Assembly: GCF_002797675.1 (NCBI RefSeq)
Contig: NZ_PGEX01000001.1
Location: 1,984,001-2,048,000, forward strand
Source: Hallerella succinigenes
Lineage (GTDB): Bacteria > Fibrobacterota > Fibrobacteria > Fibrobacterales > Fibrobacteraceae
DNA: 64,000 bases
Direction: 5' to 3'
The notes under the pieces were generated by a model, which saw only the letters and a list, made by a program, of their open reading frames with translations, made no database searches and had not been told where the DNA came from. Shown piece by piece: positions 4,729-24,074 of this stretch. Numbering within the stretch: the stretch's first letter is position 1; every line of letters begins with the position of its first letter. Both the position numbers and the translations under genes were made by a program.

Positions 4729-4802
4729 GTCCGCGTAGCTCAATTGGATAGAGTGTCAGTTTCCGAAACTGAAGGTCACGAGTTCGACTCTCGTCGTGGG
4801 CA
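4729..4802 (+). tRNA. tRNA-Arg (anticodon CCG)
   Basis: A full cloverleaf can be drawn: acceptor stem GTCCGCG with CGTGGGC (two G-U pairs), D arm around GCTCAATTGGATAGAG, anticodon stem TCAGT/ACTGA with loop TTCCGAA giving anticodon CCG (reads CGG), and T arm ACGAG-TTCGACT-CTCGT. The discriminator is A at 4802 and CCA is not encoded. TATATT at 4704-4709 with AAGACA 17 nt before it could be its promoter. A terminator follows directly. Confidence 0.93.
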
Positions 4803-22241: not shown

Positions 22242-23552
22242 ATGCAGGACACTAAAATACCGAATGTTTTTTTGAAATTGGCGTATAGCGAGTTGCTCCT
22301 TTCGTATTGCACGGAAGATCTTGTCCCGCTCGTTCAAAATGCAAGCGTTTCCAGTCGAAAGTTGATTGAAAATGCTTGGCTGGAAGATGAAATGGTGAGA
22401 GTGGAAGACAATGCCCTCATCATTGAAGGTTTTTCGAACTGGCTTCTGTCCAAGGGTGAAAATCTCGACACCTTTGCAGATCGCATGTTTGAAAAAATGA
22501 GACATTTGCATTCTGTATCTAAACGAGCCATTTTGCGCTCGTATTTGCCGTATATTCATGATTTTTATGAAATGCCGGACCAACGTCAGGGCGTTTTGCG
22601 CTACAATGAAAAGCGCAATCTGTTCCACGAAAACTTGCGTTTTGTGGAAGGACCGGTAGAAGGCGATAACCGTCATGATTTCTTGATCGGTCGCGACAAT
22701 GGTGCAAGTCATCCTGCTGCGGTCTACTCCGAATGGCTTTTGCGTTCTATGCGGCAAGCTCCTTGCCTGCTGGATCTCCCTGCTTATGAATCCGTTAACC
22801 AGCATTCTTGCCTCTGCTCTGCTGAAGAAGCTTTGCTCGGCCGTTTGGCGGGCAGCCAGGAAGGCGATAGCTTCTATGTGAGCGGAATTGCAGTCGGTAA
22901 GGTGGTGAAATTCTCGGAATGCATCGAAAAGCTTCCGATCGATCTTGGCATCTCGGATCTTGGAGACAAACTCTGCGTCCGTGCCGATACCGATGTAATC
23001 GATACGTTTACTGGAACGCATCTTCTGTACAAGGGTCGCTATTACGGCGCTCCGGTTTCCATTGCAGAATTCGTTTATACGAAGGATGTGCGTACCAAGG
23101 ATCCGTTCTTGGGACTCATCTCTTCGCTTGTTCTAGAAGAATACAGCGTGTGGCCGCCGGTCCAGAAGGCTCACGATGAACTTCTGCACAAGATCAACCA
23201 CGTGGCTGAAATCGTTTACTACGAAGCCGATGACTCGATTTCGGTGAACGGCAAGCATTTGATGCGTAACGTGCCGGCTCGTATTCTGCGTAACGTGCTC
23301 CGTGAATATTCGAAGACGGGCCGTGAAGAATTCGAAAACCGCGAATTTAAGCGAGATCCGGAAATTTGTATCGATCCGGTGAACCCGAACTTTGAAAGCC
23401 GATTGAACCGTGTCGTGGATCATTTGGAAAAGGTTTCCGACGTGATGAGCTTGAACCGCCATCGTCGCGGGGGCTTCCGTTTTGAACCGCACTGCCATAT
23501 CGATTTTCGCGAGGAACCGGCTGGAGTTCGCAAGTTGAAAAATAAGCAATAA
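22242..23552 (+). CDS. protein of unknown function, possible C-terminal winged helix
   Basis: I do not recognise this 436-residue soluble protein. No signal peptide or membrane segment is visible. The N-terminal ~200 residues look helical. The middle has a repeated GDSFYVSG / GDKLCVRAD pattern. The last ~110 residues (from ISVNGKHLMRNVPARILRNV to LNRHRRGGFRFE) resemble the strand-helix-hairpin order of an OmpR-type winged helix ending in the usual G-[FY]-[RK]-F-type hairpin. A DNA-binding role is an inference. TAAATT ends 6 nt before the ATG. It is transcribed away from mutL. Confidence 0.6.
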   Translation: MQDTKIPNVFLKLAYSELLLSYCTEDLVPLVQNASVSSRKLIENAWLEDEMVRVEDNALIIEGFSNWLLSKGENLDTFADRMFEKMRHLHSVSKRAILRSYLPYIHDFYEMPDQRQGVLRYNEKRNLFHENLRFVEGPVEGDNRHDFLIGRDNGASHPAAVYSEWLLRSMRQAPCLLDLPAYESVNQHSCLCSAEEALLGRLAGSQEGDSFYVSGIAVGKVVKFSECIEKLPIDLGISDLGDKLCVRADTDVIDTFTGTHLLYKGRYYGAPVSIAEFVYTKDVRTKDPFLGLISSLVLEEYSVWPPVQKAHDELLHKINHVAEIVYYEADDSISVNGKHLMRNVPARILRNVLREYSKTGREEFENREFKRDPEICIDPVNPNFESRLNRVVDHLEKVSDVMSLNRHRRGGFRFEPHCHIDFREEPAGVRKLKNKQ

Positions 23553-23600
23553 ATAAGAGCAAGTTTAGAGGCTACGATTCTATATTATATACGTAGAATT

Positions 23601-23672
23601 TGGCGGAAAGGTAAATCCTCTAACAACTCTATCATTGCTCCCCTCCTGGTAAGTTCGGGGTTCGATCCGCCA
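23601..23672 (+). ncRNA. candidate non-coding RNA with tRNA-like ends
   Basis: This 72-nt element begins TGGCGGA and ends TCCGCCA, which form a perfect 7-bp acceptor-like stem, and contains GGTTCGATCC like a T arm just before the 3' strand. The interior does not form normal D and anticodon arms (AGG/CCT at 23609-23619 and CCCC/GGGG at 23640-23643 and 23657-23660 are the visible pairings). TATATT lies at 23581-23586, with the start expected at about 23594-23600, and a strong terminator at 23680. It is either a decayed tRNA or a real small RNA; no reading frame is evident. Confidence 0.4.
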
Positions 23673-23679
23673 GCTTTTT

Positions 23680-23713
23680 GAAATCCTGTGATATAATCGC
23701 AGGATTTCTTTTT
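23680..23713 (+). terminator. strong terminator behind the tRNA-like element
   Basis: GAAATCCTG (23680-23688) pairs with CAGGATTTC (23700-23708), extended by GAT/ATC inside, followed by five T. Confidence 0.85.
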
Positions 23714-23748
23714 GTTTCTATTTACATTTGTAAAGGTTGTCAAACGAA

Positions 23749-24059: not shown

Positions 24060-24074
24060 CGTTGGGAGGGGCAT

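Follow-up and report, generated by a model that had tools for sequence, protein, structure and literature searches.

A family-wide hairpin RNA of Fibrobacter with a conserved C-rich loop and a probable role in gene control

A 72-nucleotide element located at positions 23601-23672 of the window (the entire 64,000-nucleotide stretch of Hallerella succinigenes DNA that was analysed), the ends of which are exactly complementary over 7 bp, is almost certainly a real, conserved and structured RNA gene, as judged from sequence comparison. Homologues with covarying stems span at least 11 genera, and these comparisons indicate that the RNA is vertically inherited, standalone and distributed family-wide. 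Given that its most durable part is the C-rich tip of a hairpin, the RNA probably regulates other genes through base pairing with their mRNAs. We consider it to represent a new, hitherto undescribed sRNA family whose mode of action is most likely a known one. Our literature search yielded no paper describing this RNA, and no small RNA described for Fibrobacter, the species of which are major cellulose degraders of herbivore guts. None of the Rfam 15 families matched the element at the gathering score, and nothing credible was seen up to E=10.

The initial annotation of this region described a TATATT box, a 72-nucleotide element closed by a perfect TGGCGGA/TCCGCCA stem and a terminator, arranged in series without a gene, all of which was confirmed from the sequence (Table 1). 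The interval from the upstream ORF (22242-23552) to the following ORF (23737 or 23752) is free of genes.

Table 1. Features of the RNA and its transcription unit, in window coordinates
Feature	Position	Strand	Basis
-10-like promoter box TATATT	23581-23586	+	Sequence; TATAWT box upstream in relatives
P1 closing helix, 5' strand TGGCGGA	23601-23607	+	Two-sided changes at 7 of 7 pairs in relatives
Internal loop, 5' side GGUAAAU	23610-23616	+	Nearly unchanged across 34 distinct copies; a subclade of genus g2 has it replaced
P2, 5' strand CCUC	23617-23620	+	Partner strand at 23657-23660; L044 and L069 carry the compensated change CUUA/UAAG
P3, 5' strand AACU-(C)-UAUCA	23625-23634	+	95% of cells paired; stems of diverged copies rewritten yet kept
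Apical loop UUGCUCCCCUCC, proposed antisense seed	23635-23646	+	Almost invariant; C-run survives change of stems and internal loop
P3, 3' strand UGGUA-AGUU	23647-23655	+	Alignment and covariation
P2, 3' strand GGGG	23657-23660	+	Covariation; both-strand changes in relatives
Internal loop, 3' side: UUC, then GA	23661-23665	+	Relatives have GGTTC, GGTGC or GGTAC
P1 closing helix, 3' strand TCCGCCA	23666-23672	+	Covariation
T-arm-like string GGTTCGATCC	23659-23668	+	Spans 3' side of internal loop
Intrinsic terminator: stem 23680-23708 (13 bp), then TTTTT	23680-23713	+	Terminator analysis

Distribution and consensus structure

Among 61 genomes searched, every one of the 37 that belong to the same family carries the element, and the similarity is concentrated in the interior rather than at the tRNA-like ends. 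A covariance search, as the initial annotation had suggested, demonstrates this conservation: model R1 matched 103 of the 111 genomes from the Fibrobacter family and none of the 57 from elsewhere in the phylum, and a trimmed model (R2) run with laxer filters matched 0 of 22 genomes outside the family. A loose pattern scan of contigs produced many chance matches, and among the matches listed, only Fibrobacter-lineage loci scored with the model. A phage origin was rejected, as phage records contained no match.

The consensus is one long hairpin composed of P1, an asymmetric internal loop (GGUAAAU/UUC), P2 (CCUC/GGGG), P3 and a 12-nucleotide apical loop, wherein P3 (AACU-(C)-UAUCA/UGGUA-AGUU) carries a bulged C and P1 comprises 7 bp in the window copy and as many as 10 bp in genus g6. 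An alignment of 34 distinct copies has 26 invariant columns, which cover the greater part of GGTAAATCCT, a large portion of the P3 stem and GCTCCCCT of the loop. When 55 distinct rows were fitted to the model, an arrangement that leans towards the model's own structure, the covariation score was 0.363; shuffles gave 0.167 and slid partners no more than 0.085. Two-sided changes occupy 137 cells of these rows against 46 expected, and compensatory changes affect each of the seven pairs of P1 and two of the four in P2. A plain MAFFT alignment, in which P1 is out of register through indels, still gave a covariation score of 0.212 versus 0.151.

Single-sequence folding yielded a z-score of -4.2 for positions 23595-23714, which is largely owed to the terminator, and only -1.4 for the 74 nucleotides around the element alone. 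At minimum energy, the window copy departs from the consensus in that the loop CCCC pairs with the P2 GGGG. An RNAalifold alternative (a GG/CC hairpin plus CCC/AGG) was rejected because L044, L051 and L069 change both P2 strands while the GG and the loop C-run stay. Chance is excluded by the comparison across genera, namely the conservation, the covarying stems and the TATAWT box, and not by folding.

Of the eight genomes missed by R1, three are incomplete assemblies without the 436-aa gene that serves as the upstream anchor. In the other five, this gene is present and is immediately followed by a hairpin that keeps the overall shape on rewritten stems; the loops of these hairpins contain UUUUUCCCCUCC, UUUUUCCCCUCU, UUUUCCCUCUU, AUUCCCUCUU and AUUUCCCUC. 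Among low-scoring copies, that of genome G118 has P3 replaced by CAGUUG/CAACUG and keeps UUCCCCUCC, and that of G128 keeps GCUCCCC. The diverged copies have lost the internal loop, which is replaced in a subclade of genus g2, and have retained a loop C-run. Because the C-run outlasts both the stems and the internal loop, it is the most durable feature of the RNA. Tandem paralogues (L014 3254, L040 copy 2 and L075 copy 2) likewise present a C-run loop and a GGURAAU internal loop on otherwise different stems. At L040:2985-3150 and L075:7070-7255, a second copy of the RNA stands in tandem at a distance of about 20 nt, and its P3 stem and loop differ considerably. Alignment, covariation and diverged copies agree on a conserved, exposed C-rich apical loop, and the RNA illustrates how stems and an internal loop may be exchanged without loss of the seed loop.

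Transcription unit

A TATAWT box is found upstream of 41 of the 55 distinct homologues (compared to 18% of shuffles), mostly at the same spacing, and genus g6 copies carry TTGACA about 17 nt ahead of a TATACT or TATATA box. For the window copy, a consensus promoter scan found no full sigma-70 match. At genus g2 loci, GGTAGTT is conserved about 18 nt upstream of TATATT, in the place of the -35 box, and is perhaps a regulator site. Terminator hairpins that differ in sequence come after the RNA in most relatives outside genus g6. Given the box at near-constant spacing and the terminator, the RNA appears to start just before P1 and to end at the terminator. It would be independently transcribed, with a length of approximately 110-120 nt from start to terminator, of which 72 nt constitute the structured part. 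Sequence and conservation thus define a standalone promoter-RNA-terminator unit, and the RNA is predicted to be transcribed. The orphan transcription unit for a small RNA that the initial annotation proposed is, at the level of sequence, well supported by comparison; the tRNA-type identity assigned to it is not.

A coding peptide was rejected because no reading frame is conserved among the 55 homologues. The window copy has one frame open across the core, and the three frames contain a stop in 24, 48 and 55 of the 55 homologues.

In genus g2 (e.g. L022 and L279-L284), an invariant string, TATTTTCTCCTTCTTAGGA, lies just 3' of P1 and before the terminator in 35 distinct copies, and the CTCCTT within it exactly complements an AAGGAG ribosome-binding site.

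Proposed function and competing explanations

We favour, with moderate confidence and by analogy with known systems, the hypothesis that the RNA is an antisense regulator acting through its C-rich loop. The exposed loop would serve as a seed that base-pairs with target mRNAs close to the start codon, at G-rich or Shine-Dalgarno-like stretches, and would thereby block translation. The stems would present and protect the loop, and a protein may bind to the internal loop. Such a loop can pair with the AGGAG-type sites used by genes of this genome, and a few single genes are strong candidates, with long complementarity to the loop at the start site, down to -17 kcal/mol. With regard to the predicted antisense action and its putative targets, crude tests by pattern and duplex energy gave no target enrichment: GAGGGG before ATG is not above control, and by duplex energy start regions are paired about equally well by shuffled loops (36 of 100). 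Apart from the RNA itself, only three sites match the exact 9-nucleotide loop complement, and these appear to lie within genes. A partly complementary string, GGGAGGGGC, is located at 24064-24072, after the small downstream gene and before another terminator-like stem, maybe by chance. The Pfam Hfq model detected no Hfq in the genome of the window.

The explanation that competes most seriously, though we judge it distinctly less probable, is that the element is a protein- or ribosome-bound housekeeping RNA whose internal and apical loops form a binding surface and pair with no specific mRNA. The presence of one locus per genome throughout the family, the invariant sequence of both loops and the lack of target enrichment are all in keeping with this possibility. 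However, one subclade loses the internal loop and leaves only a short C-run, and a short, loose motif of this type is better suited to base pairing; the tandem paralogues with altered loops in some genomes likewise suit a regulatory RNA. A doubtful further reading holds that this is a lineage-specific housekeeping RNA of a new class, the C-rich loop of which resembles the 3' end of 16S rRNA and acts genome-wide on translation initiation. Such a loop could compete with the ribosome's anti-Shine-Dalgarno sequence; searches of this genome detected no Hfq and no 6S RNA.

Known housekeeping RNAs were also considered. 6S RNA is approximately 180 nt long with a central bubble, and SRP RNA is recognizable by a GGAA tetraloop with flanking loops. 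A diverged 6S or SRP RNA was rejected, given that these hallmarks are absent on inspection and the models have no match at the locus, as was a diverged tmRNA, since the tmRNA of the genome was found elsewhere. The Rfam models for SRP RNA (small and large) and 6S RNA matched nowhere in this genome, the SRP RNA of which has probably diverged beyond the models.

It is improbable that the element is a cis-acting leader, such as a riboswitch or attenuator, of the downstream gene. The RNA does precede a terminator and a gene in the window, where a small gene and a TIGR02147 protein lie downstream. In several g6 genomes, a small secreted-protein gene follows it at a distance of 44-190 nt, in two cases after tandem RNAs and with no clear terminator between. 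(This gene, whose product contains FMQNIDREQFEQ, follows the RNA in six g6 loci, including the L040 tandem copies.) However, downstream genes vary by genus, and many lie on the opposite strand, which largely refutes this explanation. Judged from sequence, they code elsewhere for a topoisomerase-like protein, a sigma factor or an alcohol-dehydrogenase-like protein, and they are often convergent, making a cis role unlikely. A riboswitch in particular was rejected because there is no constant association with downstream genes of one pathway. Where upstream flank is present, the upstream neighbour outside genus g6 is, with few exceptions, the 436-aa gene or MutL. The 436-aa protein (22242-23552 in the window) adjoins MutL and the RNA across the family and has no Pfam or NCBIfam match.

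The remaining explanation, that of a decayed tRNA still being transcribed or of a tRNA mimic, was advanced in the initial annotation on the strength of the 7-bp closing stem and the string GGTTCGATCC, which the window copy shares with its closest relatives, and it is now practically untenable: neither ARAGORN nor the Rfam model (RF00005) calls a tRNA at the element, the tRNA-like ends vanish in other genera while the non-tRNA interior persists, and the stems are maintained by covariation rather than decaying. The observation that the interior does not fold as a tRNA holds, but this interior, dismissed at the time, turns out to be the conserved part. The acceptor-like stem is a freely varying closing helix, represented in relatives by quite different pairs such as GCGAC/GTCGC (L014), GGGC/GCCC (L017), GATGGC/GCCATC (L018) and GGAUACGUAG/CUACGUGUCC (L036). 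The T-arm-like string is, like this stem, a local accident. GGTTC forms the 3' side of the internal loop and GATCC belongs to the closing stem, and so there is no T-stem. No T-arm with its own stem stands beside the acceptor-like stem, and relatives lack the T-like string. The sole tRNA of the window is located at position 4729.

Comparison with known RNAs

The present analysis defines a family-wide Fibrobacter sRNA, for which it provides a consensus structure, a promoter box that is conserved and, in the loop, an obvious seed for mutagenesis. Like a tRNA, the element in this species has a 7-bp closing stem and a GGTTCGA string, but it lacks a cloverleaf and a T-stem, and its ends are not conserved. 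It serves as a caution against taking a short stem match for a tRNA relic.

C-rich single-stranded seeds such as the one proposed here are reported for the Firmicutes C-rich-motif sRNAs FsrA, RoxS/RsaE and IsrR, and for the alphaproteobacterial anti-Shine-Dalgarno-type sRNAs (NfeR1 and its relatives) (see also PMC8216469, PMC9410917, PMC10746234). These RNAs have other folds and occur in other phyla, and none of their Rfam models matches the element. Another counterpart is the Xanthomonas sRNA sX13, for which pairing of the C-rich (CCCC) apical loops with G-rich motifs has been proposed, and which represses mRNAs carrying such motifs near the start codon without the need for Hfq (PMC3771888). 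The two RNAs are likened by description, with no sequence relation seen: sX13 consists of three stem-loops, whereas the Fibrobacter RNA folds into a single long hairpin that contains a conserved internal loop. Like sX13, it is short and standalone, and it carries a C-rich apical loop.
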